64,000 nucleotides of DNA from positions 14,254,275 through 14,318,274 of the forward strand of contig NC_134032.1 of the NCBI RefSeq assembly GCF_964204645.1, given 5' to 3'. The first letter of the stretch is position 1; each line of letters starts with the position of its first letter. Source of the DNA: Tubulanus polymorphus. Lineage: Eukaryota > Nemertea > Palaeonemertea > Tubulaniformes > Tubulanidae. The notes beneath the pieces are model-generated. The model had not been told where the DNA came from and did not search any database. It was given only the letters and a program-made list of their open reading frames with translations. The position numbers and the translations under genes were made by a program. Below, one piece after another: positions 9,831-50,721 of this stretch.

Positions 9831-9889
9831 AGTCTCGAAATCATCCCCTGAACACCTCACCTCCTTAAGCGAATACCAGTAGAACAATT

Positions 9890-21341: not shown

Positions 21342-21357
21342 TTTTCATCCGCTCTGC

Positions 21358-21369: not shown

Positions 21370-21413
21370 ATACTATACCTGACCCATAGACTGGTTGCCG
21401 GTCTCTACAATCG

Positions 21414-22835: not shown

Positions 22836-22839
22836 AGAA

Positions 22840-26750: not shown

Positions 26751-26759
26751 TTTTCACCA

Positions 26760-27460
26760 GTGTTTACGATGATCAACCATCTTTCTGAAGATGTTTAAAG
26801 CAATTTGAATTCTAAAAGTTTTTTACACTGCCGGCTCACAGACTTAGAAACTGGTTTACCTCATCATCAGAGTTTAGACGCTGACAATTTTATCACTCCT
26901 TAAGTGGAGTAATATAATCAAGTCACTAACAATTCAGTTTTGTCAATTCAAGAAGGGAAAGGAGGGGAAGGCATTAAACCTCAATATCACCCCAGCCTTA
27001 AGTCACTTAAAATTCAGTTTATGTCACAATTAACTTGACAATTCAAAAGGTGGAGGGATCACTAAATTTCAATTTTATCACAACCAATTGTTTTAGCAGT
27101 AATTTACCGACAGTGTTTTGTAACACATAACTTTTATCAACACCTTTTGAAGGAGGTCATCAGTGTTGTGACGCACTGACAATTCTGTTCATTAGTCACG
27201 TTTATACATGACAGTTGAAGAAGGAAGGAGGAGACTCCTGACCTCAATATCACCCCAAAACAGAATGTATCAAATAAGCAGCTGTATTAAAGGAGTTCAT
27301 CAGTTTTGTAACACACTGACAATTCAGTTTGTTTGTCACGTTTCTATATGACAGTTAACAACCTTCAGGTGCAAGGAACCAAAGTGAAGCAATCAAACAA
27401 TAGCATCTTTGAGTATAACACTTTTAAAATGTGTAATGTGATAATAATTTGCTGATACAG
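26760..27460. other. Diverged 153-bp satellite-like units and spacer
   Basis: Holds degraded units with AGTTGAAGAAGGAAGGAGGA and CATCAGTGTTGTGACGCACT. The stretch 27200-27470 recurs at about 30110-30390, so it belongs to a larger duplicated block. Confidence 0.6.
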
Positions 27461-28520: not shown

Positions 28521-30200
28521 TAAGGATGCTCAGGGAGCAAAACTCGCCAACACTCAATATCACCCCATAACAGAGTGTATTAATTAACACGCAGCAGCAA
28601 GCAGCAGTATTTAAGGAGGTCATCAGTGTTGTACCACACTGAAAATTCAGTTTGATTGTCACGTTTCTACATGACAGTTGAAGAAGGAAGGAGGAGACTC
28701 CTGCACTCAATATCACCCCTGAACAGAGTGCATTTATTAACACGCTGCAGCAAGCAGCAGTATTAAAGGTCATCAGTGTTGTAACACACTGACAATTCAG
28801 TTTGTTTGTCATGTTTCTACATGACAATTGAAGAAGGAAGGAGGAGACTCCTGTACTCAATATCACCCCAAAACAGAGTGTATCAATTAACACCCAGCAG
28901 CAAGCAGCAGTATTAAAGGTGGTCATCAGTGTTGTAACACACTGAAAATTCAGTTCCTTTGTCATGTTTCTACATGACAGTTGAAGAAGGAAGGAGGAGA
29001 CTCCTGAACTCAATATCACCCCAAAACAGAGTGTATAAATTAACACGCAGCAGCAAGCAGCAGTATTAAAGGTGGTCATCAGTGTTGTAACACACTGAAA
29101 ATTCAGTTCCTTTGTCATGTTTCTACATGACAGTTGAAGAAGGAAGGAGGAGACTCCTGAACTCAATATCACCCCAAAACAGAGTGTATAAATTAACACG
29201 CAGCAGCAAGCAGCAGTATTAAAGGAGGTCATCAGTGTTTAATGCACAGACAATTCAGTTCGTTTGTCACGTTTCTACATGACAGTTGAAGAAGGAAGGA
29301 GGAGACTCCTGAACTCAATATCACCCCAAAACAGAGCCAGCAGCAAGCAGCAGTATTTAAGGAGGATGATTCATGATGTTATAATGTTTAATGTAATAAT
29401 TCTTATAGTAATAATGTTTAATGTAATAATGCAAGAAGTTCATGGAAGGTGGTAAGAATTAACACCCAGCAGCAAGCAGCAGTATTAAAGGAGGTCATCA
29501 GTGTTGTAACGCACTGACAATTCAGTTCCTTTGTCACGTTTTTACATGACAGTTGAAGAAGGAAGGAGGAGACTCCTGCACTCAATATCACCACAAAACA
29601 GAGTGTAACAATTAACACCCAGCAGCAAGCAGCAGTATTAAAGGAGATCATCAGTGTTGTAACGCACTGACAATTCAGTTCCTTTGTCACGTTTCTACAT
29701 GACAGTTGAAGAAGGAAGGAGGAGACTCCTGAACTCAATATCACCCCAAAACAGAGCCAGTAGCAAGCAGCAGTATTTAAGGAGGATGATTCATGATGTT
29801 ATAATGTTTAATGTAATAATTCTTATAGTAATAATGTTTAATGTAATAATTCAAGAAGTTCATGGAAGGTGGTAAGAATTAACACCCAGCAGCAAGCAGC
29901 AGTATTAAAGGAGGTCATCAGTGTTGTAACGCACTGACAATTCAGTTCCTTTGTCACCTTTCTACATGACAGTTGAAGAAGGAAGGAGGAGACTCCTGCA
30001 CTCAATATCACCCCAAAACAGAGTGTATCAATTAACACCCAGCAGCAAGCAGCAGTATTAAAGGAGATCATCAGTGTTGTAACGCACTGACAATTCAGTT
30101 CCTTTGTCACGTTTCTACATGACAGTTGAAGAAGGAAGGAGGAGACTCCTGACCTCAATATCACCCCAAAACAGAGTGTATCAATTAAGCAGCTGTATTA
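28520..30200 (+). repeat. Satellite B array, first block (153-bp unit)
   Basis: Unit contains CAGCAGCAAGCAGCAGTATT, AAAGGAGGTCATCAGTGTTG, GACAATTCAGTTCCTTTGTC, TTTCTACATGACAGTTGAAG and AAGGAAGGAGGAGACTCCTG. Consecutive CAGCAGCAAG starts at 29048 and 29201 give 153 bp. Variant units carry a TGATGTTATAATGTTTAATG insert. Confidence 0.93.
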
Positions 30201-30379
30201 AAGGAGTTCATCAGTGTTGTAACACACTGACAATTCAGTTTGTTTGTCACGTTTCTATATGACAGTTAACAACCTTCAGGTGCAAGGAACCAAAGTGAAG
30301 CAATCAAACAATAGCATCTTTGAGTATAACACTTTTAAAATGTGTAATGTGATAATAATTTGCTGATACAGTATACACA

Positions 30380-32545
30380 GAGAACCAACACCAGCATTAT
30401 TTCAATGATTAAACCACCACAAAGCTATCGATGGATAGCTGTTTTGAATATTTATACATTTAAAACGTAAAGTCGCAATAAGGACGATCAGGAAACATAA
30501 TCAGTCCCAATTCACCGACATATATTACAATATATACAATGTACCAACACCAGCGACATTTCAAAGATTCAACCACCACAAAGCTATCGATGGATAGCTG
30601 TTTTGAATATTTATACATTTAAAACGTAAAGTCGCAATAAGAACGATCCGGAAACATAATCAATCCCAATTCACCGACATATATTACAATATATACAATG
30701 TACCAACATTTCAAAGATTCAACCACCACAAAGCTATCGATGGATAGCTGTTTTGAATATTTATACATTTAAAACGTAAAGTCGCAATAAGGACGATCAG
30801 GAAACATAATCAGTCCCAATTCACCGACATATATTACAATATATATATACACAGAACCAACACCAATGACATTTCAAAGATTCAACCACCACAAAGCTAT
30901 CGATGGATAGCTGCTTTGAATATTTATACATTTAAAACGTAAAGTCGCAAGAAGGATAATCACAAAACATGATCAATCCCATTTCACCGACATATATTAC
31001 AATATATACAATGTACCAACACCAGCGACATTTCAAAGATTCAACCACCACTAAGCTATCGATGGATAGCTGTTTTGAATATTTACACATTTAAAATGTA
31101 AAGTCATAATGAGGACGATTAGGAAACATAATCAGTCCCCATTCACCGACATATATTACAATATATACACAGAACCAACACCAGCGACATTTCAATGATT
31201 CAGCCACCACAAAGCTATCGATGGATAGCTGCTTTGAATATTTATACATTTAAAACGCTAAGTCGCAAAAAAGACGATCACAAAATATGATCCATCCCAT
31301 TTCACCGACATATATTACAATATATGCAATGTACCAACACCAGCAACATTTCAATGATTCAACCACCACAAAGCTATCGATGGATAGCTGTTTGGAATAT
31401 TTATACATTTAAAATGTAAAGTTGCAATAAGGACGATCAGGAAACATAATCAGTCCCAATTCACCGACATATATTACAATATATACACAGAACCAACACC
31501 AGCGACATTTCAATGATTCAGCCACCACAAAGCTATCGATGGATAGCTGCTTTGAATATTTATACATTTAGAACGCTAAGTCGCAAAAAAGACGATCACA
31601 AAATATGATCAATCCCATTTCACCGACATATATTACAATATATACAATGTACCAACACCAGCGACATTTCAAAGATTCAACCACCACAAAGCTATCGATG
31701 GATAGCTGTTTTGAATATTTATACATTTAAAATGTAAAGTCATAATGAGGACGATTGGGAAACATAATCAGTCCCAATTTACCGACATATATTACAATAT
31801 ATACACAGAACCAACACCAGCAACATTTCAATGATTCAACCACCACAAAGCTATCGATGGATAGCTGCTTTGAATATTTATACATTTAAAACGCTAAGTC
31901 GCAAAAAAGACGATCACAAAATATGATCCATCCCATTTCACCGACATATATTACAATATATGCAATGTACCAACACCAGCAACATTTCAATGATTCAACC
32001 ACCACAAAGCTATCGATGGATAGCTGTTTGGAATATTTATACATTTAAAATGTAAAGTTGCAATAAGGACGATCAGGAAACATAATCAGTCCCAATTCAC
32101 CGACATATATTACAATATATACACAGAACCAACACCAGCGACATTTCAATGATTCAGCCACCACAAAGCTATCGATGGATAGCTGCTTTGAATATTTATA
32201 CATTTAGAACGCTAAGTCGCAAAAAAGACGATCACAAAATATGATCAATCCCATTTCACCGACATATATTACAATATATACAATGTACCAACACCAGCGA
32301 CATTTCAAAGATTCAACCACCACAAAGCTATCGATGGATAGCTGTTTTGAATATTTATACATTTAAAATGTAAAGTCATAATGAGGACGATTGGGAAACA
32401 TAATCAGTCCCAATTTACCGACATATATTACAATATATACACAGAACCAACACCAGCAACATTTCAATGATTCAACCACCACAAAGCTATCGATGGATAG
32501 CTGCTTTGAATATTTATACATTTAAAACGCTAAGTCGTAATAAGG
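30380..32545 (+). repeat. Satellite A array, second block (about fourteen copies)
   Basis: Same unit as at 27460-28520. Within it a four-unit higher-order repeat of 635 bp is visible: CATTTAGAACGCTAAGTCGC at about 31565 recurs at about 32200. Confidence 0.93.
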
Positions 32546-35500
32546 ATGCTCAGGGAGCAAAACTTGCCAAAACTCAATATCACCGCATTACAGAGTGTAT
32601 TAATTAACGCGCAGCAGCAAGCAGCAGTATTTAAGGAGGTCATCAGTGTTGTACCAGACTGACAATTCAGTTTGTTTGTCATGTTTCTACATGACAGTTG
32701 AAGAAGGAAGGAGGAGACTCCTGCACTCAATATCACCCCTGAACAGAGTGTATTTATTAACACTCAGCAGCAAGCAGCAGTATTAAAGGTAGTCATCAGT
32801 GTTGTAACACTCTGACAATTCAGTTTGTTTGTCACGTTTCTACATGACAGTTGAAGAAGGAAGCAGGAGACCCCTGAACTCAATATCACCCCAACAGAGT
32901 GTATTAATTAACACCCAGCAGCAAGCAGCAGTATTAAAGGAGGTCATCAGTGTTGTAACACACTGACAATTCAGTTTGTTTGTCACGTTTCTACATGACA
33001 GCTGAAGCAGGAAGGAGGAGACTACTGAACTCAATATCACCCCAAAACAGAGTGTATAAATTAACACGCAGCAGCAAGCAGCAGAATTAAAGGAGGTCAT
33101 CAGTGTTGTAACGCACTGACAATTCAGTTCGTTTGTCACGTTTCTACATTACAGTTGAAGAAGGAAGGAGGAGACTCCTGAACTCAATATCACCCCAAAA
33201 CAGAGTGTATAAATTAACACGCAGCAGCAAGCAGCAGTATTAAAGGAGGTCATCAGTGTATAATGCACAGACAATTCAGTTCGTTTGTCACGTTTCTACA
33301 TGACAGTTGAAGAAGGAAGGAGGAGACTCCTGAACTCAATATCACCCCAAAACAGAGCCAGCAGCAAGCAGCAGTATTTAAGGAGGATGATTCATGATGT
33401 TATAATGTTTAATGTAATAATTCTTATAGTAATAATGTTTAATGTAATAATTCAAGAAGTTCATGGAAGGTGGTAAGAATTAACACCCAGCAGCAAGCAG
33501 CAGTATTAAAGGAGGTCATCAGTGTTGTAACGCACTGACAATTCAGTTCCTTTGTCACCTTTCTACATGACAGTTGAAGAAGGAAGGAGGAGACTCCTGC
33601 ACTCAATATCACCCCAAAAACAGAGTGTATCAATTAACACCCAGCAGCAAGCAGCAGTATTAAAGGAGGTCATCAGTGTTGTAACGCACTGACAATTCAG
33701 TTCCTTTGTCACGTTTCTACATGACAGTTGAAGAAGGAAGGAGGAGACTCCTGACCTCAATATCACCCCAAAACAGAGTGTATCAATTAACACCCAGCAG
33801 CAAGCAGCAGTATTAAAGGTAGTCATCAGTGTTGTAACGCACTGACAATTCAGTTCCTTTGTCACGTTTCTACATGACAGCTGAAGCAGGAAGGAGGAGA
33901 CTCCTGAACTCAATATCACCCCAAAACAGAGCCAGCAGCAAGCAGCAGTATTTAAGGAGGATGATTCATGATGTTATAATGTTTAATGTAATAATTCTTA
34001 TAGTAATAATGTTTAATGTAATAATTCAAGAAGTTCATGGAAGGTGGTAAGAATCAACACCCAGCAGCAAGCAGCAGTATTAAAGGAGGTCATCAGTGTT
34101 GTAACGCACTGACAATTCAGTTCCTTTGTCACGTTTCTACATGACAGTTGAAGAAGGAAGGAGGAGACTCCTAACTCAATATCACCCCAAAACAGAGTGT
34201 ATAAATTAACACGCAGCAGCAAGCAGCAGTATTAAAGGAGGTCATCAGTGTTTAATGCACAGACAATTCAGTTCGTTTGTCACGTTTCTACATGACAGTT
34301 GAAGAAGGAAGGAGGAGACTCCTGAACTCAATATCACCCCAAAACAGAGCCAGCAGCAAGCAGCAGTATTTAAGGAGGATGATTCATGATGTTATAATGT
34401 TTAATGTAATAATTCTTATAGTAATAATGTTTAATGTAATAATGCAAGAAGTTCATGGAAGGTGGTAAGAATTAACACCCAGCAGCAAGCAGCAGTATTA
34501 AAGGAGGTCATCAGTGTTGTAACGCACTGACAATTCAGTTCCTTTGTCACGTTTCTACATGACAGTTGAAGAAGGAAGGAGGAGACTCCTGCACTCAATA
34601 TCACCACAAAACAGAGTGTATCAATTAACACCCAGCAGCAAGCAGCAGTATTAAAGGAGATCATCAGTGTTGTAACGCACTGACAATTCAGTTCCTTTGT
34701 CACGTTTCTACATGACAGTTGAAGAAGGAAGGAGGAGACTCCTGAACTCAATATCACCCCAAAACAGAGCCAGCAGCAAGCAGCAGTATTTAAGGAGGAT
34801 GATTCATGATGTTATAATGTTTAATGTAATAATTCTTATAGTAATAATGTTTATTGTAATAATTCAAGAAGTTCATGGAAGGTGGTAAGAATTAACACCC
34901 AGCAGCAAGCAGCAGTATTAAAGGAGGTCATCAGTGTTGTAACGCACTGACAATTCAGTTCCTTTGTCACGTTTCTACATGACAGTTGAAGAAGGAAGGA
35001 GGAGACTCCTGAACTCAATATCACCCCAACAGAGTGTATTAATTAACACCCAGCAGTAAGCAGCAGTATTAAAGGAGGTCATCAGTGTTGTAATGCACTG
35101 ACAATTCAGTTCCTTTGTCACGTTTCTACATGACAGTTGAAGAAGGAAGGAGGAGACTCCTGAACTCAATATCACCCCAAAACAGAGCCAGCAGCAAGCA
35201 GCAGTATTTAAGGAGGATGATTCATGATGTTATAATGTTCAATGTAATAATTCTTATAGTAATAATGTTTAATGTAATAATTCAAGAAGTTCATGGAAGG
35301 TGGAAAGAATCAACACCCAGCAGCAAGCAGCAGTATTAAAGGAGGTCATCAGTGTTGTAACGCACTGACAATTCAGTTCCTTTGTCACGTTTCTACATGA
35401 CAGTTGAAGAAGGAAGGAGGAGACTCCTGAACTCAATATCACCCCAACAGAGTGTATTAATTACCACCCAGCAGTAAGCAGCAGTATTAAAGGAGGTCAT

Positions 35501-38500
35501 CAGTGTTGTAACACACTGACAATTCAGTTTGTTTGTCACGTTTCTACATGACAGCTGAAGCAGGAAGGAGGAGACTACTGAACTCAATATCACCCCAAAA
35601 CAGAGTGTATAAATTAACACGCAGCAGCAAGCAGCAGTATTAAAGGAGGTCATCAGTGTTGTAACGCACTGACAATTCAGTTCGTTTGTCACGTTTCTAC
35701 ATTACAGTTGAAGAAGGAAGGAGGAGACTCCTGAACTCAATATCACCCCAAAACAGAGTGTATAAATTAACACGCAGCAGCAAGCAGCAGTATTAAAGGA
35801 GGTCATCAGTGTATAATGCACAGACAATTCAGTTCGTTTGTCACGTTTCTACATGACAGTTGAAGAAGGAAGGAGGAGACTCCTGAACTCAATATCACCC
35901 CAAAACAGAGCCAGCAGCAAGCAGCAGTATTTAAGGAGGATGATTCATGATGTTATAATGTTTAATGTAATAATTCTTATAGTAATAATGTTTAATGTAA
36001 TAATTCAAGAAGTTCATGGAAGGTGGTAAGAATTAACACCCAGCAGCAAGCAGCAGTATTAAAGGAGGTCATCAGTGTTGTAACGCACTGACAATTCAGT
36101 TCCTTTGTCACCTTTCTACATGACAGTTGAAGAAGGAAGGAGGAGACTCCTGCACTCAATATCACCCCAAAAACAGAGTGTATCAATTAACACCCAGCAG
36201 CAAGCAGCAGTATTAAAGGAGGTCATCAGTGTTGTAACGCACTGACAATTCAGTTCCTTTGTCACGTTTCTACATGACAGTTGAAGAAGGAAGGAGGAGA
36301 CTCCTGACCTCAATATCACCCCAAAACAGAGTGTATCAATTAACACCCAGCAGCAAGCAGCAGTATTAAAGGTAGTCATCAGTGTTGTAACGCACTGACA
36401 ATTCAGTTCCTTTGTCACGTTTCTACATGACAGCTGAAGCAGGAAGGAGGAGACTCCTGAACTCAATATCACCCCAAAACAGAGCCAGCAGCAAGCAGCA
36501 GTATTTAAGGAGGATGATTCATGATGTTATAATGTTTAATGTAATAATTCTTATAGTAATAATGTTTAATGTAATAATTCAAGAAGTTCATGGAAGGTGG
36601 TAAGAATCAACACCCAGCAGCAAGCAGCAGTATTAAAGGAGGTCATCAGTGTTGTAACGCACTGACAATTCAGTTCCTTTGTCACGTTTCTACATGACAG
36701 TTGAAGAAGGAAGGAGGAGACTCCTAACTCAATATCACCCCAAAACAGAGTGTATAAATTAACACGCAGCAGCAAGCAGCAGTATTAAAGGAGGTCATCA
36801 GTGTTTAATGCACAGACAATTCAGTTCGTTTGTCACGTTTCTACATGACAGTTGAAGAAGGAAGGAGGAGACTCCTGAACTCAATATCACCCCAAAACAG
36901 AGCCAGCAGCAAGCAGCAGTATTTAAGGAGGATGATTCATGATGTTATAATGTTTAATGTAATAATTCTTATAGTAATAATGTTTAATGTAATAATGCAA
37001 GAAGTTCATGGAAGGTGGTAAGAATTAACACCCAGCAGCAAGCAGCAGTATTAAAGGAGGTCATCAGTGTTGTAACGCACTGACAATTCAGTTCCTTTGT
37101 CACGTTTCTACATGACAGTTGAAGAAGGAAGGAGGAGACTCCTGCACTCAATATCACCACAAAACAGAGTGTATCAATTAACACCCAGCAGCAAGCAGCA
37201 GTATTAAAGGAGATCATCAGTGTTGTAACGCACTGACAATTCAGTTCCTTTGTCACGTTTCTACATGACAGTTGAAGAAGGAAGGAGGAGACTCCTGAAC
37301 TCAATATCACCCCAAAACAGAGCCAGCAGCAAGCAGCAGTATTTAAGGAGGATGATTCATGATGTTATAATGTTTAATGTAATAATTCTTATAGTAATAA
37401 TGTTTATTGTAATAATTCAAGAAGTTCATGGAAGGTGGTAAGAATTAACACCCAGCAGCAAGCAGCAGTATTAAAGGAGGTCATCAGTGTTGTAACGCAC
37501 TGACAATTCAGTTCCTTTGTCACGTTTCTACATGACAGTTGAAGAAGGAAGGAGGAGACTCCTGAACTCAATATCACCCCAACAGAGTGTATTAATTAAC
37601 ACCCAGCAGTAAGCAGCAGTATTAAAGGAGGTCATCAGTGTTGTAATGCACTGACAATTCAGTTCCTTTGTCACGTTTCTACATGACAGTTGAAGAAGGA
37701 AGGAGGAGACTCCTGAACTCAATATCACCCCAAAACAGAGCCAGCAGCAAGCAGCAGTATTTAAGGAGGATGATTCATGATGTTATAATGTTCAATGTAA
37801 TAATTCTTATAGTAATAATGTTTAATGTAATAATTCAAGAAGTTCATGGAAGGTGGAAAGAATCAACACCCAGCAGCAAGCAGCAGTATTAAAGGAGGTC
37901 ATCAGTGTTGTAACGCACTGACAATTCAGTTCCTTTGTCACGTTTCTACATGACAGTTGAAGAAGGAAGGAGGAGACTCCTGAACTCAATATCACCCCAA
38001 CAGAGTGTATTAATTACCACCCAGCAGTAAGCAGCAGTATTAAAGGAGGTCATCAGTGTTGTAACACACTGACAATTCAGTTTGTTTGTCACGTTTCTAC
38101 ATGACAGCTGAAGCAGGAAGGAGGAGACTACTGAACTCAATATCACCCCAAAACAGAGTGTATAAATTAACACGCAGCAGCAAGCAGCAGTATTAAAGGA
38201 GGTCATCAGTGTTGTAACGCACTGACAATTCAGTTCGTTTGTCACGTTTCTACATTACAGTTGAAGAAGGAAGGAGGAGACTCCTGAACTCAATATCACC
38301 CCAAAACAGAGTGTATAAATTAACACGCAGCAGCAAGCAGCAGTATTAAAGGAGGTCATCAGTGTATAATGCACAGACAATTCAGTTCGTTTGTCACGTT
38401 TCTACATGACAGTTGAAGAAGGAAGGAGGAGACTCCTGAACTCAATATCACCCCAAAACAGAGCCAGCAGCAAGCAGCAGTATTTAAGGAGGATGATTCA

Positions 38501-40765
38501 TGATGTTATAATGTTTAATGTAATAATTCTTATAGTAATAATGTTTAATGTAATAATTCAAGAAGTTCATGGAAGGTGGTAAGAATTAACACCCAGCAGC
38601 AAGCAGCAGTATTAAAGGAGGTCATCAGTGTTGTAACGCACTGACAATTCAGTTCCTTTGTCACCTTTCTACATGACAGTTGAAGAAGGAAGGAGGAGAC
38701 TCCTGCACTCAATATCACCCCAAAAACAGAGTGTATCAATTAACACCCAGCAGCAAGCAGCAGTATTAAAGGAGGTCATCAGTGTTGTAACGCACTGACA
38801 ATTCAGTTCCTTTGTCACGTTTCTACATGACAGTTGAAGAAGGAAGGAGGAGACTCCTGACCTCAATATCACCCCAAAACAGAGTGTATCAATTAACACC
38901 CAGCAGCAAGCAGCAGTATTAAAGGTAGTCATCAGTGTTGTAACGCACTGACAATTCAGTTCCTTTGTCACGTTTCTACATGACAGCTGAAGCAGGAAGG
39001 AGGAGACTCCTGAACTCAATATCACCCCAAAACAGAGCCAGCAGCAAGCAGCAGTATTTAAGGAGGATGATTCATGATGTTATAATGTTTAATGTAATAA
39101 TTCTTATAGTAATAATGTTTAATGTAATAATTCAAGAAGTTCATGGAAGGTGGTAAGAATCAACACCCAGCAGCAAGCAGCAGTATTAAAGGAGGTCATC
39201 AGTGTTGTAACGCACTGACAATTCAGTTCCTTTGTCACGTTTCTACATGACAGTTGAAGAAGGAAGGAGGAGACTCCTAACTCAATATCACCCCAAAACA
39301 GAGTGTATAAATTAACACGCAGCAGCAAGCAGCAGTATTAAAGGAGGTCATCAGTGTTTAATGCACAGACAATTCAGTTCGTTTGTCACGTTTCTACATG
39401 ACAGTTGAAGAAGGAAGGAGGAGACTCCTGAACTCAATATCACCCCAAAACAGAGCCAGCAGCAAGCAGCAGTATTTAAGGAGGATGATTCATGATGTTA
39501 TAATGTTTAATGTAATAATTCTTATAGTAATAATGTTTAATGTAATAATGCAAGAAGTTCATGGAAGGTGGTAAGAATTAACACCCAGCAGCAAGCAGCA
39601 GTATTAAAGGAGGTCATCAGTGTTGTAACGCACTGACAATTCAGTTCCTTTGTCACGTTTCTACATGACAGTTGAAGAAGGAAGGAGGAGACTCCTGAAC
39701 TCAATATCACCCCAAAACAGAGCCAGCAGCAAGCAGCAGTATTTAAGGAGGATGATTCATGGTGTTATAATGTTTAATGTAATAATTCTTATAGTAATAA
39801 TGTTTATTGTAATAATTCAAGAAGTTCATGGAAGGTGGTAAGAATTAACACCCAGCAGCAAGCAGCAGTATTAAAGGAGGTCATCAGTGTTGTAACGCAC
39901 TGACAATTCAGTTCCTTTGTCACGTTTCTACATGACAGTTGAAGAAGGAAGGAGGAGACTCCTGAACTCAATATCACCCCAACAGAGTGTATTAATTACC
40001 ACCCAGCAGTAAGCAGCAGTATTAAAGGAGGTCATCAGTGTTGTAATGCACTGACAATTCAGTTCGTTTGTCACGTTTCTACATGACAGTTGAAGAAGGA
40101 AGGAGGAGACTCCTGAACTCAATATCACCCCAAAACAGAGCCAGCAGCAAGCAGCAGTATTTAAGGAGGATGATTCATGATGTTATAATGTTTAATGTAA
40201 TAATTCTTATTGTAATAATGTTTAATGTAATAATTCAAGAAGTTCATGGAAGGTGGTAAGAATTAACACCCAGCAGCAAGCAGCAGTATTAAAGGAGGTC
40301 ATCAGTGTTGTAACGCACTAACAATTCAGTTCCTTTGTCACGTTTCTACATGACACTTGAAGAAGGAAGGAGGAGACTCCTGAACTCAATATCACTCCAA
40401 AACAGAGTGCATTAATTAACACCCAGCACCAAGCAGCAGTATTAAAGGAGGTCATCAGTGTTGTAATGCACTGACAATTCAGTTCCTTTGTCACGTTTCT
40501 ACATGACACTTGAAGAAGGAAGGAGGAGACTCCTGAACTCAATATCACTCCAAAACAGAGTGTATTAATTAACACCCAGCCCCAAGCAGCAGTATTAAAG
40601 GAGGTCATCAGTGTTGTAACGCACTGACAATTCAGTTCCTTTGTCACGTTTCTACATGACACTTGAAGAAGGAAGGAGGAGACTCCTGAACTCAATATCA
40701 CTCCAAAACAGAGTGTATTAATTAACACCCAGCACCAAGCAGCAGGATTAAAGGAGGTCATCAGT
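32545..40765 (+). repeat. Satellite B array, second block, with 2553-bp higher-order repeat
   Basis: About 8.2 kb of 153-bp units. A higher-order period of 2553 bp is exact for many landmarks: 33285, 35838, 38391 and 34277, 36830, 39383. Each period has five variant units bearing the AT-rich TGTTATAATGTTTAATGTAA insert (offsets 574, 418, 420, 418 and 723). The third period lacks one 153-bp unit (39383 to 39650 is 267 instead of 420). The array ends in three diverged units with CCAGCACCAAGCAGCAG. Confidence 0.93.
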
Positions 40766-41840
40766 TATAAATTAGCAGTAATTTACCCACAGTGTTTTGT
40801 AGCACTTAACTTTCATCACCACCAATTGATTTAGCAGTAATTGATCCATAGTTTGAAATGTGGTGCAATCAATGAGCAATTTCAAACTTTTCTATTAAGG
40901 AAACCACAGCAAAAAACTAAATGTATATAAAAAAGGAGTGTCTTATTTAATTTTTGATGAGAAAGGAGAGAGAGGAGAGGAGGCATGTACACCTAACACA
41001 ACGTTTAAAACTCAATATCACAACCAAAACAGTTGAATGATAGCAAGCATCAGCAACATGAAGTTTTCAAATAAGGAAGTTATCAGTATTGTAAGTCACA
41101 TCTATTTGACAATTCAAGAAGGCAAGGGAAGGAGAAGAGACTACAAAACTCAATATCACCCTTAGAACAGAGTGGAATGAGCAACATGCAGTAGCAAACA
41201 ACAGTATTTGCCATGTTTCTACATGACGAAAGGAGTATCTTCTGTATTTGATACTCGTTTGATGTCATAGCAAGGCCATTACCAGGAGTTATAGAGAACA
41301 AAAGGAGAAGCCATGCCACCACAAGATTTTAATTGTCTATGATTTTGATATTGTATATAAAAATGGCACGATATATCACCTCGTAGCAGAGGAAGGAGGT
41401 AGAACAAACCACAAGATCAGTACATCTATCAATGTTTCATTACATGTATCATTGTTTCAAGACACCAACTTTCAGTGTTTTGTAACACTTACCTTTATCA
41501 CCACCAATTGATTTAGCAGTAATTCACATTTCGTGATGAGAGAGAGGAGAGAGAGAGAGAGAGGAGTCTTGTAGGAAATGTAGCGATACACCTATCAAAG
41601 CTTTTTTACAAATGCAAATCAGTCTATTCTAGACTATGGACGTTTGTTGCTGGAGGAGACAAACTGTATTCCAAATTGAAACCCTTATCCCTTTTAGCTT
41701 TTTCTTAAAGAGATCGAACCCACAAGACGTCTGGCAAAGGCTCCAAACATTTTCATAACTGTTTGTGTAGAGCCAATGATAAAACCAGCACTTATCATCA
41801 TCAAACAAAAGCTGAAAACTGCAAACCAGAGGAAGTATGC
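40766..41840. other. Unassigned sequence with degraded satellite B and a (GA)n run
   Basis: Loose similarity to satellite B (TCAATATCACCCTTAGAACAG, AAGGGAAGGAGAAGAGA) and GAGAGAGAGAGAGAG near 41545. No supported gene apart from the weak exon candidate at 41694-41818. Confidence 0.45.
41694..41818 (-). other. Weak candidate: terminal exon with a membrane segment
   Basis: After TCCTCTGGTTTGCAG a 40-codon frame encodes FSFCLMMISAGFIIGSTQTV, KMFGAFARRLVGS and a TAA, i.e. one hydrophobic segment then basic residues. The acceptor derives from the neighbouring repeat and no upstream exon is seen, so this may be chance. Confidence 0.15.
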
Positions 41841-41844
41841 ACAA

Positions 41845-43010
41845 TCGATGAGATGATTGTTCATAGCTGCAACCAATGGAGTGAACTGCAACCAGTGAGG
41901 GAGAAGTATGCACAATCAATGAGATGATTGTTCATAGCTGCAACCAATAGAGTGAACTGCAACCGGTGAGGGGAAGTATGCACAATCGATGAGATGATTG
42001 TTCATAGCTGCAACCAATAGAGTGAACTGCAACCAGTGAGGGAGAAGTATGCACAATCAATGAGATGATTGTTCATAGCTGCAACCAATAGAGTGAACTG
42101 CAACCAGTGAGGGGGAAGTATGCACAATCAATGAGATGATTGTTCATAGCTGCAACAAATCAAGTGAACTGCAACAAGTGAGGGGAAATTATATTTCAAA
42201 CCAGTGAGGGGAAATTAGCTCAATCATTGAGATGATTGTTCATAGCTGCAACCAATGGAGATAGCTGCAACCAGTGAGGGGGAAGTATGCACAATCAATG
42301 AGATGATTGTTCATAGCTGCAACCAATAGAGTGAACTGCAACCAGTGAGGGGAAGTATGCACAATCGATGAGATGATTGTTCATAGCTGCAACCAATAGA
42401 GTGAACTGCAACCAGTGAGGGGGAAGTATGCACAATCAATGAGATGATTGTTCATAGCTGCAACCATTCAAGTGAACTGCAACAAGTGAGGGGAAATTAT
42501 ATTTCAAACCAGTGAGGGGAAATTAGCTCAATCATTGAGATGATTGTTCATAGCTGCAACCAATGGAGATTGCTGCAACCAGTGAGGGGGAAGTATGCAC
42601 AATCAATGAGATGATTGTTCATAGCTGCAACGAATGGAGTGAACTGCAACCAGTGAGGGGAAATTATATTTCAAACCAGTGAGGGGAAATTAGCTCAATC
42701 ATTGAGATGATTGTTCATAGCTGCAACCAATGAAGTGACAACCAGTGAGGGGAAAATATGCACAATCAATGAGATGATTGTTCATAGCTGCAACCAATCA
42801 AGTGACAACATGTGAGGGGAAAGTATGTACAATCAATGAGATGATTGTTTGTAGCTGCAACCAATCAAATGAACTGCGACCAGTGAGGGGAAATTATATT
42901 TCAAACCAGTGAGGGGAAATTAGCTCAATCATTGAGATGATTGTTCATAGCTGCAACCAATGAAGTGACAACCAGTGAGGGGGAAGTATGCAAAATCGAT
43001 GAGATGATTT
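41845..43010 (+). repeat. 70-bp tandem repeat with a longer higher-order pattern
   Basis: Unit GTATGCACAATCAATGAGAT, GATTGTTCATAGCTGCAACC, AATAGAGTGAACTGCAACCA, GTGAGGGGAA; starts near 41849, 41919, 41989, 42059. Variants with TTATATTTCAAACCAGTGAG recur every 300-350 bp. Confidence 0.92.
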
Positions 43011-43680
43011 TTTTCATAACTGCAACCAATGATGGTAAAACATATACATTGGGTTTGCAATTCCATTGATTATTCATAATGATGTATAGTTTTTGTCAGC
43101 TGGAGCCTGGTACGTCTTCACCTCCGGACAAAAAATCTAGTGTTTCTTTATTCATGATTTGCCACCCAAAATTGATTGTCAAGGTAATTGTAGGATGTAG
43201 CAGTAGTTTACAATCAGTAGTTCCAGTAATGAATTAACAAAAGTGTTAGTCGCCAGCAACTAGCAAAGTACCAATCCACCGACGGGGTTGGTTCTGTAAT
43301 ACATAAGTATATAAGACATAAAAATACCTTTATAAAATGTGTATTGAAAGATTCAATCATCAGCCTCACTGATGATATACTGTCGACTTATCGTTATTAT
43401 GTAATGGATGAGGCAAATCATGAAAGCGGTTAAAAGTGTAGTAACAACAGAGTTAGTTGTACAACCGTATCGTACAACCAGTGACATGATCACTTCTCGC
43501 AAAATAAGCTTACGATCGCTTCCAAACCTTCAAATGACCCTTCTTACCCAATTTTCTTCGTTATTTCCATCACATCACATCCATTATTTTATTGGTAACT
43601 ATTTACAAATATGATAATTATATGCGAACATGTCATTTATGTGTTATATGCATGATCCTTAATGTTTTTTTTTTCATTCC
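43011..43680. other. Unassigned; upstream side of the orphan exon
   Basis: No exon with a matching donor is found here on the plus strand. A 68-codon frame at 43408 has no features. The T-rich tract ending at 43682 is the acceptor of the exon at 43683. Confidence 0.4.
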
Positions 43681-43682
43681 AG

Positions 43683-44374
43683 ATTTAGACATCATAGACT
43701 CTCTTAACCATGACCAGTCTGAAGCAGCCCGCAGAGCACTTCAAGGATTTAAAGACATTCATACAAGGTGTGTATCTCTCTGCGGGCCTAAGGAACCAAC
43801 TCCAGAAATCATTCCACCATTTGAGTTGGTTCCTTTGCAGGAGGTGGACCCTGCTTCTCCCGTAAATGTGGAGCAGGAGGTCGCCCCTGCAGTGGTGACC
43901 CCGACAGAGGCGCCACAGCTTCAGATGCCTTCACTGCGTTGGTCGCCCCGTCGAAAGACACAAGAAATAAATTACTCAATAGGTTCGGGGCGTCCGAAAC
44001 CAAAAAACAAAGGCAAGCGTGCGGCTCGTCCTCCCCCACCGAGACAACCAAATTTTGAGGAGGCGAGCAGTGATGAGGAGGAATTCGCCACTCCTGGAGC
44101 AACACCACCAGGGCCCGCAACACCACCACCTCGCGATGATACTAGACCACCACGACGACCACGACAACCACCTACTACTAATTCTACTACTACTACCACT
44201 ACTACCACTACTAAGAAAAGACGACCACGACCACCTACTTCAACTGCGACTAGTACTACTACAACTTCGACAACTAGATCAAATAATACAAGAAATAGAA
44301 AAAGAAGACTTGAAGATGAAGAAAGTGATGATGATGATTACGAAAACAATAATGCTGGTGGCTTCTATATTTAA
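43683..44374 (+). CDS. Terminal exon of an unrecognised basic, disordered protein (exon 3 of the rearranged locus)
   Basis: After a strong acceptor (T-rich tract, CATTCCAG at 43682) the frame is open for 229 codons to TAA at 44372-44374. It starts LDIIDSLNHDQSEAARRAL (likely helical), then a Pro-rich segment, SLRWSPRRKTQ, an acidic patch EEASSDEEEF, alternating Pro/Arg and Thr runs, KKRRPRPP, RNRKRRLEDEESDDDDYE and NNNAGGFYI. It looks nuclear and disordered, with two basic NLS-like clusters. The first codon is completed as Asn if joined to the candidate exon at 44513-44741 or 49512-49737 (both end one base into a codon). No known domain recognised. No matching upstream exon in the same orientation lies in the window. 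Confidence 0.5.
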
Positions 44375-44786
44375 TATTTAGAAAATAATGATGCCTAATA
44401 ATTTAATGTTAACTATTATTATTATTTAATATAAACTCGAGTTAACTATTTCTTAGAATCAATAATTTTCGATTTTCTTGATTTTTATAACATTATTGTT
44501 TTTACATTGCAGCAGCAGCAGCAGCAGCAGCAGCATCAGCGACAACAGTACGCGGCGATATACATTGATACCAACAAAACTATACAACTTAAACTTCAAC
44601 TTAAACATCAAACGACTTCAACTTCTACCTCTCCTTTGACCATGTCTACGAAATCAGACATTTTTTGTGGGCTTTTGAAGTTGGTGCGCGCCGAGGTTCT
44701 TGCACTAGATCCGGCATCCCTCGGCGCGTTTTGTGATTTGAGTAAGTACAAACTCTACTTCATCGATCTCATTTAGTTCATCTTGA
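44350..44786 (+). repeat. Left arm of a 435-bp inverted duplication
   Basis: Begins in the last codons of the exon at 43683-44374 (AATGCTGGTGGCTTC) and runs through an AT-rich intron-like stretch, the candidate exon and its donor to TTTAGTTCATCTTGA. Its reverse complement is at 49467-49900 with only a handful of differences. Confidence 0.9.
44513..44741 (+). pseudogene. Exon 2 of the rearranged gene, left inverted-repeat copy
   Basis: Bounded by acceptor TTTTTACATTGCAG and donor GTAAGTAC. Frame: eight CAG codons (Gln), HQRQQYAAIYIDTN, then MSTKSDIFCGLLKLVRAEVL and ALDPASLGAFCDL to the splice site. It lies downstream of the exon it should precede (43683-44374), on the same strand, so in this order it cannot be spliced normally; hence the pseudogene call. 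No homologue recognised. Confidence 0.45.
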
Positions 44787-44932
44787 TAAAATTTATAAAC
44801 AGTTCATTTCTATAGCGGCCGGGTCTGTTATGGTGAAATTGATCACAATTTTAAAAAAAGTAATGTATAGGGTAGATAGGCGGCCGGCGGGGTCAACATT
44901 TAAGCTCAGCAGAGCGGAGAAACAAGGTATCA
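44787..44932 (+). mobile_element. Truncated copy of the TGATAC MITE at the inverted-repeat junction
   Basis: AAAATTTATAAACAGTTCAT through AGAGCGGAGAAACAAGGTAT matches 54482-54640 closely, but the left end is replaced by the inverted-duplication arm. Confidence 0.8.
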
Positions 44933-45350
44933 ATTTTTTTTGGCCTTAAGTGCAGAAATTTATTCAATTATTTTGTAGAACACTTTTTGATTGCATACAG
45001 GGCCACAGTAAGAGGAAGAATTTGCATTTTATTTCCTCTGAACATGAGGCAAGCGTGTACATATATTTTCTTCTGAATTTTCTCAAAAATGAAGACAAAA
45101 TTTTGACTGATTTGTGGATATTTTATTGTTTAAACTATTTACAGCATGAATTATAACAGAAAAATGACACAAATCATTACACTTCACTGAATCTAAAACC
45201 AGTAAAAGCATTTCACACAACACTGCCCGCTACTGCACCTTCAGAAACAACACTCACTACAAATAAAAAAACATTCATTTTGAAGAACAATATTTAACTA
45301 TCAACACAAATGGCTGTAATTCATTATTCCCAATAGAATATTCATTAGGC
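44933..45350. other. Unassigned; contains a dispersed 60-bp motif
   Basis: TTTCACACAACACTGCCCGC with TACTGCACCTTCAGAAACAA at 45210-45255 recurs at 47260-47300 and 47315-47355. No gene seen. Confidence 0.45.
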
Positions 45351-46003
45351 GCGATCACACGACGAAATTTAGACCGGTCTAAATTTGGTCCGGTCCAATT
45401 TAGACCGGACCAAGCGTTCTAGAAGAGCGAACCAGGTCCGGACCAAATTTTGGACCGGTCTAAATACGCGTGTGTGGACAGAAACTGGTACCAGGTCCGG
45501 TCTAAATCGTAATTCTGAATCTCTGCGGTAGATGTCGCCACCTCTGCGGCAGAGTGTGAGTCCAGTTTATTAAGTTTTAAATGCTTTTATTACCGTTTAC
45601 GTAATTATTTTTAAGTACTGTTTTTACTCCCTATTCAATGGAAACTTTTGGAGCGTAATTCGTATTTGTATATCGCGATCATCATCCGTTTTATTGCCGT
45701 GTTTTAAACCGTGTTTAAACGACACTTAGAGTTTCAGCATGATAATGTATAAACCTGACAAGAGGATCGAATTGGTCAAATGAAGAATGTCGTGCTCTAC
45801 TTGGAATCTGAAAGCAAGACTTCATCCAGGCGTAATAAATCATTTAGCAGATGGCGACATCTTGTGGGCCCGGTGACAAGCGATTTTTTCACCGTGTGTC
45901 ATAACGCCGTGTGAACGCTCACCAAAATTTGGTCCGGTCTAAATTTGGACAGGACCAGGTACGGACCCATTTAGACCGATCTAACTAGTTGTCGTGTAAA
46001 CGC
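45351..46003. mobile_element. Non-autonomous DNA transposon, about 650 bp
   Basis: Ends GCGATCACACGACGAAATTT and GTTGTCGTGTAAACGC are imperfect inverted repeats, with subterminal palindromic GGTCCGGTCTAAATTTGG motifs on both sides. No transposase frame. Superfamily uncertain. Confidence 0.65.
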
Positions 46004-46585
46004 GGCTATTGTCAGCAATAGGCCTATCGGTACATCACATATTCATTACATAACTTACCTAGAATGTATAATTCATCTTACAACAGCCATTGATTTATTC
46101 AGAACAACAAAATTCCATGCACAACTGGTATTCATCACACGGTAGACTCTTCCTAAACCGCTATGCTTCCTTTTTATACCGAATTAGGCAGTTACCGGTT
46201 TGAAGAATTGCAAAAAAAAATCAATGGATGAAAAGAATTATTGAGCTTAACGACGGTCAAAATTATCAATTTCTTTGTATTTTATAACATCTGACCGTGT
46301 AGCGAATGGCCACAATTCCTTCTGTAATACACCAGACACAAGTCGTTCAATAGACTGGACATTTCACGTTTCTTTATCCCGCAACATTTTCCTGTTTCGG
46401 TTCACTTGTGATGCCCTTGCATAATGGAAACTAAGACCAGTTTAAGTTATAGTAATAGAACATAAGGCCTCAACCTCTAACACAGATAGAAGATTGATAA
46501 GTAAATGTATTCTATATTGTAAGTGAACAGCCATTACAGTTTACCTGTTTAGGCAGAGAATAAACGGAAATGAAGTGAACATTTA
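46004..46585. other. No feature recognised
   Basis: AT-rich sequence without ORF, repeat or RNA signature that I can support. Confidence 0.4.
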
Positions 46586-46870
46586 CGGGATAAGGGAAGC
46601 GTTCTGAGAAACCAGGTCGTCGTGGATTCGAACCCCGTACATTACCGTGTCCCTAGCAAGACACTTATCCTCATTGCCTCTTTGCACCCAGGAATAAATA
46701 AATACCTGGCCTGACAGATGACTCCTGAGCGCCTAGCAGCTGCTCGGATGTTGCTTCTCCCAAGGAGACTATTAAATGGCTGGGGCAATAAAACCGAAAA
46801 TGTAAAGCTCTCTGAGCAGCTGCTGGATTTAGCACTAGACGCATAATATTATAATTATCATTATCATCGA
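46586..46870 (+). mobile_element. tRNA-derived SINE with a widespread central domain
   Basis: Box-B-like GGATTCGAACCCCG is followed by GTGTCCCTAGCAAGACACTT, CATTGCCTCTTTGCACCCAG and AAATACCTGGC, a central block I recognise from SINEs of many marine invertebrates. Tail near ATTATCATTATCATC. Confidence 0.65.
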
Positions 46871-47759
46871 ATAGAGCAATATACCAGAAAAGGCGAAATA
46901 TATGTATTGAAAAACAACATTTCATCTTTATTTCATCGAATTGAACAGATTATACCAGATATAGACCGTCTACCAGTTTAAGTGGAGTCTACAGTATCAT
47001 TAAGGGCAAAAAATCCAGTAAAATCCGAGACATTTGAATATATTTTTCTAAAATGAATTTTCACCGAATTTTACTCCAAAAATTGCGATATATCCTTCGA
47101 GTACTGCACATTTCCCTATAGTTTTTGCTAAGTCTAATTCATTTTCATTTCACGACAAACAGAAAGACAACACAAATAATTTCATTCAAGTTTCTTCTGT
47201 ATTTTCATCATCAAACAAATACTTCAGCTTTTACTTTCAGAAACAACCACCAGGGGTAAGATCCATTTCACAGGACACTGTCCCCTGCTGTACCTTCAGA
47301 AATAACCAACAGGGGTAAAAACCATTTCACAAAACACTGCCCGCTGCTGCAACTTCATACATTTAAATCCATTCACTACAAATTATAATAAAACTTTTAT
47401 TCATAAAAATTAAACATCAGCGAACAATAAACAATATTTAGAATTTAGGCTTATTTCACATGTGTTCATTAAGTATTTCGAATAAGTCACTACTTACCCC
47501 TCAAATAGAGAATTCTTCAGTGGAGTAATTCACTATAAATACAGCTGCAGCCGTTTACAGAAAAAACAATATGAAATGTCGCTGTCGAACTTGTAGGGTA
47601 TAAAACGGGATAGACCTAGATAAATGTCAGGCCTTGATAACAGTAGAGGAAATACTTTTTATGGCCTCTAGAAAATAAGAGAATTCTGAAAATAAAACAT
47701 TAAGTTAAAGGGTAGGCCTATCTGATGAACTGCTAGAGGAAATTTGATAAAATCTGGTC
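46871..47759. other. Unassigned sequence with two copies of a dispersed motif
   Basis: Tandem copies of AGAAACAACCACCAGGGGTA and TTTCACAGGACACTGTCCCC near 47240 and 47300. No gene seen. Confidence 0.4.
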
Positions 47760-47789
47760 TCAGAACGAAATTCGGTTCCTGACTAAACT

Positions 47790-48245
47790 ATCAACTAAAC
47801 CGCAGTCCAGTTATTGACTGACTAAAATATGGACTAAACCGTAGTCCAGTTATTGACTAAAATATGGACTAAACCGCAGTCCAGTTATTGACTAAAATAT
47901 GGACTAAACCGTAGTCCAGTTATTGACTAAAATATGGACTACACCGCAGTCCAGTTATTGACTAAAATATGGACTTAACCGTAGTCCAGTTATTGACTAA
48001 AATATGGACTAAACCGTAGTCCAGTTATTGACTAAAATATGGACTACACCGCAGTCCAGTTATTGACTAAAATATGGAATAAACCGTAGTCCAGTTATTG
48101 ACTAAAATATGGACTTAACCGTAGTCCAGTTATTGACTAAAATATGAACTACACCGCAGTCCAGTTATTGACTAAAATATGGACTAAACCGTAGTCCAGT
48201 TATTGACTAAAATATGGACTTAACCGTAGTCCAGTTATTGATTAA
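47790..48245 (+). repeat. 35-36-bp tandem repeat, about 12 copies
   Basis: Unit ACCGTAGTCCAGTTATTGAC plus TAAAATATGGACTAA, alternating GTAGTCC/GCAGTCC, which gives a two- to three-unit higher order. Confidence 0.92.
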
Positions 48246-48250
48246 ACAAA

Positions 48251-48633
48251 GTGGCTACTCGTACGGACCCGTACGAATAATTCCGTAGGCTATTTGTACG
48301 CACCCGTCGGATAACTCTGGAATTATGTGTACGGGAAGGTATAGGGTTAGGGTAAGGTGAGGCTATATGTAGTTAAAACATTCAACCGACTGTCAGCGAG
48401 CTCGGTGGTCCAGTGGTACGATGCTGTGCTAGTAATTTACTGGCCCGGGTTCGAGTCTCGCTCTATCCGCTATTTTTCTCTAATTCTATTCTCCACACTT
48501 TCCTTGAATTTTCTAAGTCGTGCACCTCTGTACGCATGCGCGGCGTTAATCGGCCAATCAGCGACAGTGTGCAGATCCTAGTCCCGTACGAATAGTCTCC
48601 AGAGTAATCCGTACGGTCCGTACGAGTAGCCAC
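48251..48633. mobile_element. 383-bp terminal-inverted-repeat element carrying a tRNA-like sequence
   Basis: Begins GTGGCTACTCGTACGGACC and ends with its exact complement GGTCCGTACGAGTAGCCAC, with weaker pairing further in. No transposase. Interior includes the tRNA-like stretch at 48395-48462. Confidence 0.85.
48395..48462 (+). tRNA. tRNA-like sequence (pseudogene) inside the TIR element
   Basis: Box A TGGTCCAGTGG and box B GGTTCGAGTCT match RNA polymerase III promoters. AGCGAG pairs with CTCGCT, and GCTAG/CTGGC can close a 7-base loop. The base before the anticodon is not U and the T stem is imperfect, so it is a tRNA-derived sequence rather than a working tRNA. Confidence 0.45.
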
Positions 48634-48659
48634 AGCGTTGATTAAACTGCAGTCTGCTT

Positions 48660-49020
48660 CCTGACTAGTCAGTAACCTGTCTGTGGTTTAGTTTCACGAT
48701 CGGATATTTTCACAAACCACAGCTCATCCGATTATAAAAAGCTTACCACCAACGATTTAGGGAACTAACTACTTCCTGACTAATGGACTGAACCGCACAG
48801 TCCAGTTACTTGATTTATTAAACATAAATCAGGATTTCGTATGAAATGCATTGGTCTGTAGGCCTACACAACTTAAATTATTTATGTTGTAACTTATCTC
48901 TATTGACTGGAATATGAATAACATGATGAATATTTCACAATTTCGACAATATTTGGAACCGAAACCAGGAAATGAAGTTACTTCCTCAAGTTATTTTTCA
49001 TCCACCAGAGCCTCCACTCA
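48660..49020. other. No feature recognised
   Basis: Some palindromic GACTAGTCAG-type fragments, otherwise nothing supported. Confidence 0.35.
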
Positions 49021-49021
49021 C

Positions 49022-49110
49022 TATTCAATTCAATTCAAACTTTATTCACCATAGATTCGTTAGCAAATTCAATTGAGTTTAAGAGTGGTGACAAAATTGC
49101 ATCATATGTC
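49022..49110 (-). mobile_element. LINE 3'-tail fragment
   Basis: On the minus strand GGTGAATAAAGTTTGAATTG then AATTGAATAG resembles the end of the LINE at 52566-52595 (CAATAAAGTGTGAATTGAAT). Only the last tens of bases are present. Confidence 0.5.
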
Positions 49111-49466
49111 AAAATGAAAAATTTATACTCGAACAATTGAGAAATTTGAAATAGAATAAGAGACTAGAAACATAAAAGGATATGTTCAAAATAAATTTCC
49201 TAATTTTATCAGTGTGACATAAATTGAGTTTTCCAAAATTAAAAAGAGAATTGAAAGAAATTGATATTAGATGATAATAGATTTTTTAATTAATGAAATT
49301 CGAAATAATTGAGATTTAGACAATTTGAGATTTAGGAAATCAAATAATGCATCAAATAATGTGAGATAAAATAATTGTGATTGTGAATTTGAGATCAAAT
49401 AATTTCAGATGTTGGAAATCAAATAATTTGAGATGTTTGTCAAAAATGATCGAGAATTTGAGATAC
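49111..49466. other. Simple AT-rich sequence
   Basis: Repeats of GAAATTTGAGAT/ATCAAATAAT words without a fixed period; no gene seen. Confidence 0.4.
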
Positions 49467-49900
49467 TCAAGATGAACTAAATGAGATTGATGAAGTAGAG
49501 TTTGTACTTACTCAAATCACAAAACGCGCCGAGGGATGCCGGATCTAGTGCAAGAACCTCGGCGCGCACCAACTTCAAAAGCCCACAAAAAATGTCTGAT
49601 TTCGTAGACATGGTCAAAGGAGAGGTAGAAGTTGAAGTCGTTTGATGTTTAAGTTGAAGTTGAAGTTGTATAGTCTTGTTGGTATCAATGTATATCGCCG
49701 CGTACTGTTGTCGCTGATGCTGCTGCTGCTGCTGCTGCTGCAATGTCAAAACAATAATGTTATAAAAATCAAGAAAATCGAAAATTATTGATTCTAAGAA
49801 ATAGTTAACTCGAGTTTATATTAAATAATAATAATAATTAACATTAAATTATTAGGCATCATTATTTTCTAAATATTAAATATAGAAGCCACCAGCATTA
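49467..49900 (-). repeat. Right arm of a 435-bp inverted duplication
   Basis: Reverse complement of 44350-44786. I count about five substitutions and one CAG unit of difference. Flanking sequence differs on both sides, so the breakpoints are sharp. Confidence 0.9.
49512..49737 (-). CDS. Exon 2 of the rearranged gene, right inverted-repeat copy
   Basis: Nearly identical to the left copy (one CAG fewer, few substitutions) with acceptor GACATTGCAG and donor GTAAGTAC. Encodes Gln run, then MSTKSDIFCGLLKLVRAEVL and ALDPASLGAFCDL. It follows a promoter and short 5' exon on the same strand (50368-50391), so translation could start at MSTKS. The exon it would join in phase lies on the other strand, 5 kb away. 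Possible intact start of an unknown gene. Confidence 0.5.
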
Positions 49901-50367
49901 AGTTGAACGACGCTTCGAATGAAAGGTTTCTATGGATTCGAGTTACGGTTGAATAGACTGAGCTGTCTGTGTATTACACCTAGGCATGTCAACTAGCCGC
50001 TTTAGCGCGTCGATTTGAACACCAGAAAAACAGCTTCCGAAAATTTCATAAATAAATTTGATAAATTTCCATTTCCTCAATAAAATCACAATAACGTCTT
50101 CATTATTACGAGAGCGAAATTGAAAATCAAATGTTGTAATTTACTTCTAAATATTTAAAACACAATTTGGACAATTTTGAGCAAAATGAACGTCACAATG
50201 GAAATGTCATAATTTAAACACCTATATAATATAATCCGAACTTTCGGAACTTTGGAAATTGTCTCGTATGCGAAACCTAAGGTCTATGTATAAAATTTAC
50301 AAGTAAGATAAATAGAATAAATAAATTTGATCGAAATAAATAAATAAAATGGATGACGTTTGCTTAC

Positions 50368-50436
50368 CTGTAGAAATGGCCGAACTGGAATGAGGGATCA
50401 GCTGACCTGAGTTTTTATACTGACAGTGTGACGTCA
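50368..50436 (-). promoter_or_regulatory. Core promoter and 5' exon (CRE, TATA, initiator, donor)
   Basis: On the minus strand: CRE palindrome TGACGTCA at 50436-50429, TATAAAA at 50419-50413, initiator TCATTCC with the expected start near 50391 (28 nt from TATA), a 5' exon of about 24 nt, then donor ACAG/GTAAGC (exon end 50368). Spacing of all elements is textbook. It points at the candidate exon at 49737-49512. Confidence 0.6.
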
Positions 50437-50721
50437 CTGAGACTGACCAATGAAAAGTACCAATATTACCGCCAAGTTTAAAAAATCATTTTCTGATGGG
50501 ATTCGAACCTGATCAACGCCACAAAAAAATTCCATTTAGTTCGAATCCACGCAAATTCAATTAATATTCACACTGATGTTTCCTCAGTTTACCCTAGTTA
50601 TCTGTTTAACTTAATCTGTTTGACAAACTGTTTAAGATGCATTCTGAAAATCGATTTTAAGCAAACTGAACACATACAAAATGACATACGAGACAAACTT
50701 ACACACCCGAGTGGTTACCAC

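Follow-up and report, generated by a model that had tools for sequence, protein, structure and literature searches.

A rearranged copy of a multi-copy gene in Tubulanus polymorphus, with a deletion probably patched by inverted exon copies

The subject of the present study is a rearranged gene in a stretch of 64,000 nucleotides from the nemertean Tubulanus polymorphus (C8:14254275-14318274 of a 267.8-Mb assembly, in the following called the window), in which an exon occurs twice, in opposite orientation. Comparison with related copies elsewhere in the genome makes it likely that the locus is a dead copy of a multi-copy host gene, in which a deletion was patched with inverted copies of neighbouring pieces by fold-back or replicative template switching. 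This is a known kind of mutation and not a new way of making RNA; its product is a well-resolved pseudogene, and the family concerned is without a described relative in the libraries searched. An initial annotation of the window had offered the inversion-duplication of a real gene as its first option, and this was upheld by paralogues in normal order. Comparison with them also shows how a gene can be disordered by a single repair event in a way that mimics trans-splicing.

Normal order of the gene and its disruption in the window

Homologues of either exon, whose absence from related species the initial annotation had named, together with a lack of transcription, as a refutation, were looked for in the same genome only, where both exons have many: the exon-2 block yielded at least 46 matches (40 of 53 candidates scored), and for the exon-3 protein 74 matches were listed. 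Exon order was surveyed in 39 of the 46 exon-2 and 52 of the 74 exon-3 matches, the omitted ones (seven for exon 2) being fragments. The loci with the most similar exon-2 block were fetched from contigs C2, C11 and C5, those of C2 and C11 being extended to ~39.6 kb each. Both extended loci display the same order on one strand, namely promoter, exon 1, exon 2, an intron of ~6 kb, exon 3, ~10 kb of further sequence and 71-bp repeats; they are collinear for ~20 kb and then have tandem arrays in common for ~9 kb more. The exon order of the C5 locus is the same, and its exon 3 belongs to another subfamily (74% identical). Altogether, 35 of the 39 exon-2 matches examined (35 of 37 without the two in the window) are followed on their own strand by exon 3, at a distance of 1.3 to 16 kb. 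The four matches outside this order are the two of the window, one on C3 that has no exon 3 in the 20 kb around it, and one from a C2 cluster whose order is scrambled. Among the matches listed, exon-2 blocks across the family are 73-99% identical.

The window holds one damaged copy of a genome-repeated unit of ~30 kb (Table 1). For the DNA to the right of position 51650, 54 matches were listed (of 519 candidates, 40 were scored), and not one of them lay within 100 kb of another listed unit copy. On the minus strand the window is normal from about 51.6 kb down to 44784, after which follow the inverted exon-2 block, an inverted exon-3 segment and the 71-bp repeats.

The two exon-2 blocks measure 437 bases (left) and 434 bases (right) and differ by five mismatches and one 3-base gap inside a CAG run, so that, the gap aside, the arms are 98.8% complementary; 4680 bases separate the 275-nt core arms. 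Their similarity is far beyond chance, and both arms are copies of one genome-repeated sequence. The alignment thereby bears out an inverted, duplicated block with a splice-bounded exon on opposite strands, ~4.7 kb apart and with about five differences, as first described. Four substitutions are private to the left block (at 44413, 44578, 44591 and 44765), while the right block has one private substitution and a 3-base deletion; position 44503 completes the list of arm-specific sites.

The complete promoter and 5' exon that had been placed before the right copy on the minus strand were recovered at about 50451-50368. Its elements, a TATA box, a CRE/ATF-like palindrome (TGACGTCA) and a CCAAT box, are identical in the window and in all three paralogues compared (L007, L008 and L009), with a few intervening bases varying. 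Identical in the same three is the intron side of the exon-1 donor (GTAAGC); two bases immediately preceding the donor differ. The ATG of exon 2 lies at 49611-49609 and opens a coding part of 33 codons and one base; this start of 33 amino acids is open in all seven blocks read, among which the C2 and C5 loci recur. Exon 2 ends at 49512, at a minus-strand donor (GATTTGA/GTAAGT), and exon 3 starts at 43683 on the plus strand (CAG/ATTTAGAC). The split codon is completed from A and AT to AAT (Asn), and the in-phase join of one base plus two across opposite strands, as originally stated, agrees with the sequence.

The exon 3 of the window is broken after residue 224 of 285, and the final 61 codons are gone. 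For the open frame up to 44374, annotated at first as exon 3, the start was retained and the end abandoned: at 44350-44353 the truncated exon and the beginning of the left block share their bases, and the five-residue tail is chimeric and differs from the C-terminus of the family. Among the exon-3 copies fetched, which were the longer of the 74 matches, the C-terminal motif around GPGW is present in all 42 others (in variant form in L051, and with the frame broken upstream in L031) and absent from the window. Partial or split copies were left out of this set, such as a two-piece copy at C2:27.77 Mb, an example of other broken copies in the family. A functional copy combines collinear exons with an intact C-terminus, and the window copy has neither. 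No single collinear transcript from this promoter can now include both exon 2 and an intact exon 3, which makes a pseudogene the most likely status of the copy; in many paralogues elsewhere the exon-3 frame is open.

Table 1. Features of the rearranged unit, in positions of the window
Feature	Position	Strand	Remarks
Repeated unit, approximate extent	21813-51632	-	Best matches to C2/C11 stretches; lower end set by length of fetched paralogues
Promoter elements	50412-50451	-	TATA 50413-50419; TGACGTCA 50429-50436; CCAAT 50447-50451
Exon 1, untranslated	50368-50392	-	Putative start ~25 bases from TATA; donor after 50368, CTACAG/GTAAGC
Right exon-2 block	49467-49900	-	Normal position in the family
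Exon 2	49512-49737	-	Acceptor in CAG run, exact base ambiguous
Intron common to paralogues	44784-49466	-	Holds 35-bp tandem array of variable copy number
Junction B, intron/inverted exon-2 block	44784-44786	-	3-base overlap TCA
Left, inverted exon-2 block	44350-44786	+	Its exon 2 ends at 44741
Junction A, exon 3/exon-2 block	44350-44353	+	4-base overlap TAAT
Chimeric frame	43683-44374	+	Exon-3 residues 1-224, followed by five from the exon-2 block and a TAA stop
Inverted segment: intron end and truncated exon 3 (from 43683)	43052-44353	+	Opposite orientation to rest of unit
Junction C, 71-bp repeats/inverted segment	43044-43050	.	~7 bases of filler, ATACATT
71-bp tandem repeats	41710-43043	-	Window rejoins normal order, C2 composite about 28252 onward

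Joins, missing DNA and a possible course of repair

Measured against the C2 copy, the window lacks 254 bp of the intron and about 9.7 kb on the far side of the exon-3 break; the latter (18544-28251 of the C2 composite) has no match of at least 100 bases anywhere in the window. Two of the three joins carry overlaps in the range of 2-5 bp (or 2-8 bp) expected of template switching or fold-back. For inverted joins drawn at random within the unit (20,000 draws), overlaps of at least three bases arose in 6.3% and of at least four in 2.2%. Both inserted pieces, the 437-bp exon-2 block and the 1.3-kb exon-3 segment, are inverted and probably templated by nearby DNA.

From this, a course of events may be proposed, the order of its steps being our inference. 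A break or stalled fork would have arisen in the intron; the free end would have folded back onto exon 2, some 4.7 kb to its rear, primed there and copied 437 bases. After a switch at TAAT to exon 3, 1.3 kb may have been copied, and the growing end would finally have been joined to the 71-bp repeats, by microhomology-mediated break-induced replication/fork stalling and template switching (MMBIR/FoSTeS) or by fold-back repair.

MMBIR/FoSTeS is characterised by 2-5 bp junctions and by inverted duplications with deletions near low-copy repeats (PMC2621351). The window resembles these cases in its deletion with inverted duplication, its 3- and 4-base overlaps at two joins and its repeat-rich DNA; it differs in scale and setting, as ~10 kb in an animal gene family are affected instead of human disease loci, one join has filler and only a single event was seen. 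Fold-back inverted duplications possess a spacer of normal copy number between the inverted copies and overlaps of 2-8 bp (PMC3907307). In the window, too, a direct and an inverted block flank a 4.7-kb spacer that is single-copy, and the spacer ends in a short overlap. However, its inverted copy is short (437 bp), and beyond it come a second template and then the original unit in place of a terminal deletion.

Several points weigh against this interpretation. No derived base is common to the left and right blocks and absent from the paralogues, and on this account an origin in cis, from the neighbouring exon-2 copy, is not proven. A dispersed repeat, which also occurs at 54.4 kb in the window, accounts for about 59 of the 254 bp lost from the intron. 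The stretch of intron next to the right block (48721-49466) has its closest counterpart in the C5 locus L009 (99.9%) and not in C2/C11, whereas for the inverted exon-3 segment C2/C11 are the closest. The truncated exon 3 of the window shows only four differences from L007 in 668 bases; since it barely differs, the loss of function is argued from structure and not from decay. In addition, the mechanism is read from three joins in a single event, and overlaps of 3-4 bases are also produced by end joining.

The donor of the inverted pieces is blurred by sequence exchange among the copies. The inverted segment as a whole is 99.1% identical to L007 and 98.5% to L008. A foreign donor was considered: in the intron part of the exon-3 segment the window is 98.7% identical to L007 and 98.9% to L008, which equals the identity between L007 and L008 (98.7%), and nothing there points to one, but the intron beside the right block, being nearest to L009, leaves room for it. 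Separately, L009 (C5:1206999-1213412) proved to be a mosaic of two subfamilies, as its exon-2 block is 98% like that of the window and its exon 3 only 74% identical; this mosaic points to exchange between copies.

The age of the event can be given only in relation to the paralogues. The duplication had been called recent, a word that holds in a relative sense: the arms differ at 5 of ~434 sites, which is similar to the divergence of the two nearest paralogues in the exon-3 segment. These two, L007 and L008, differ by 1.3-1.5% in that segment (98.7% and 98.5% identity) and by 1.3-4.3% over seven segments. The rearrangement is thus roughly as old as the split of the nearest paralogues, or somewhat younger.

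Competing explanations

The arrangement could be an artefact, if a normal copy or two overlapping copies had been wrongly joined in a repeat-rich region. The locus does sit in a multi-copy unit full of tandem arrays, and none of the 37 other exon-2 matches examined has exon 3 in the inverted order of the window. However, private changes occur on both arms, which are hence not one molecule read twice, and the identity at two of the joins is limited to 3-4 bases, whereas wrong joins by assemblers usually occur where identities are long. There is furthermore no N in the window, and contigs beyond C11 carry no listed exon match that could represent another allele (exon-2 search, 40 of 53 candidates scored). 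A misassembly is disfavoured and we hold it to be unlikely.

Alternatively, the locus might be the product of two separate events, a simple inversion and, unrelated to it, the arrival of an exon-2 block that came from a different copy. That the left block lacks any derived base shared with the right block alone is in keeping with such a history. However, two or three events would have to have struck one spot independently, and the left block is flanked directly by the intron break on one side and the exon-3 break on the other. This alternative has a very low probability.

The rearranged copy might also have acquired a function as a hairpin-RNA locus. The retained promoter would transcribe exon 2 and its inverted copy 4.7 kb further on, and a double-stranded RNA of ~435 bp would be diced into small interfering RNAs (siRNAs) against exon 2 of the family. 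In its favour are the preserved promoter elements and exon-1 donor, the complementarity of the arms reported above and the presence of a target family with exon-2 blocks of 73-99% identity; the genome moreover yields 27 Piwi-domain matches and one exon-sized Dicer-dimer match (E 5e-6). An analogue has been published: the hairpin-RNA suppressors Nmy and Tmy act on the Dox genes in Drosophila simulans via siRNAs (PMC10292708). Like them, the window has a portion of a multi-copy gene family in inverted copies, here next to a retained promoter; unlike them, it is known from DNA alone and has a long loop, and its arms are probably a by-product of DNA repair. Against a hairpin stand 12 A[AT]TAAA signals between the arms on the minus strand, within the 4.7 kb that would have to be transcribed, and a loop that would require retention of the intron; only a single locus is concerned, and the differences between its arms are uncompensated. 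That the broken copy serves as a natural suppressor of a selfish or dosage-sensitive family at chromosome ends, one encoding basic, probably nuclear proteins, is a remote prospect, as is the hairpin transcript itself. If it were true, the birth of a suppressor acting by RNA interference would have been caught, a repair accident having made a trans-acting silencer in one step.

Trans- or back-splicing of the pair into a normal protein, which had been among the options first suggested and is in line with the matching phases of exon 2 and exon 3, is exceedingly improbable and is not needed, because the two exons are normally collinear (at 35 of 37 other exon-2 matches examined): the phase match is simply inherited from a collinear gene as in L007 and L008, and the exon 3 of the window is without the conserved C-terminus.

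The gene family and further features of the unit

The predicted protein of the paralogues has ~320 amino acids, 33 of which come from exon 2. The exon-3 part comprises an N-terminal helical stretch, a proline-rich linker, a basic, AT-hook-like SPRR...GSGRP motif, and the conserved C-terminus. For the exon-3 product of one paralogue modelled alone, two N-terminal helices and one near the C-terminus were predicted, the remainder being of low confidence (mean pLDDT 51, pTM 0.17). Values of pN/pS for exon 3 range from 0.23 to 0.56 within five groups (40 copies), and those of dN/dS from 0.37 to 0.59 in 15 pairs of six representatives, the broken L031 having been dropped. The exon-3 frames of the paralogues are under purifying selection of moderate constraint.

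In Pfam no family came near the cut-off (best E 1.7 for the spliced protein and 0.039 among 18 members), and sequence searches of the PDB with protein and profile gave best E-values of 0.058 and 0.029, mostly in parts rich in proline, threonine and lysine. A profile search of viral contigs yielded no confirmed relative. A literature search for a described subtelomeric family gave nothing evidently on the present one, which is no proof that it is unpublished.

Merging the 52 exon-3 matches at 50 kb resulted in 43 loci. The distance to a contig end is below 2 Mb for 30 of them and below 5 Mb for 41. The binomial probability of such clustering is 1e-14, under the assumptions of 11 long contigs with true ends and of independent copies, neither of which is demonstrated. 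Contig C7, whose length was not seen in this count, bears no exon-2 or exon-3 match among the matches listed. Subtelomeric multigene families form a general class with which the present family can be compared: its copies are dispersed and in tandem toward contig ends, with open frames and moderate constraint. In contrast to that class, no Pfam or PDB relative was found. With its conserved CRE/TATA promoter, a protein for which no relative was found and 41 of 43 loci within 5 Mb of contig ends, the family offers a lead for chromosome-end biology.

The unit was also inspected for signs of a mobile element. In the 29.7-kb C2/C11 composites, the part beyond position 9500 was listed for frames of at least 90 amino acids; by eye none had the look of an enzyme such as a transposase, integrase or reverse transcriptase, and two of them submitted to Pfam gave no match. 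No terminal repeats were detected between 8501-11000 and 36001-39601 of the C11 composite, the far end of the unit lying perhaps outside this stretch.

Further observations concern single copies and the surrounding DNA. At C6:3876105-4072000, seven gene copies are arranged head to tail with a spacing of 28-34 kb, and all seven have stop-free exon-3 matches. A 134-bp tandem satellite at L059:626-2464 (C1:31520525-31522363) has arisen from a piece of exon-3 coding sequence and comprises 13.7 copies with 96% matches; its frames contain stops, and 134 is not a multiple of 3. Within the window, ~13 kb of nested tandem arrays (27461-40765; units of 15, 153, 159, 318 and 418-420 bp) are common to the C2 and C11 units. 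In the intron, palindromic repeats like AATTTAGACCGGTCC were spotted by eye near both ends of a stretch of ~630 bp (45360-45990), of which the repeat listing covers only the end at 45365-45413; these ends resemble those of a small non-autonomous DNA transposon. Finally, an exon-like frame at 15021-15473 on the minus strand of the window matches the Pfam family FAD_binding_2 (E 7e-15) and looks like a succinate dehydrogenase flavoprotein.

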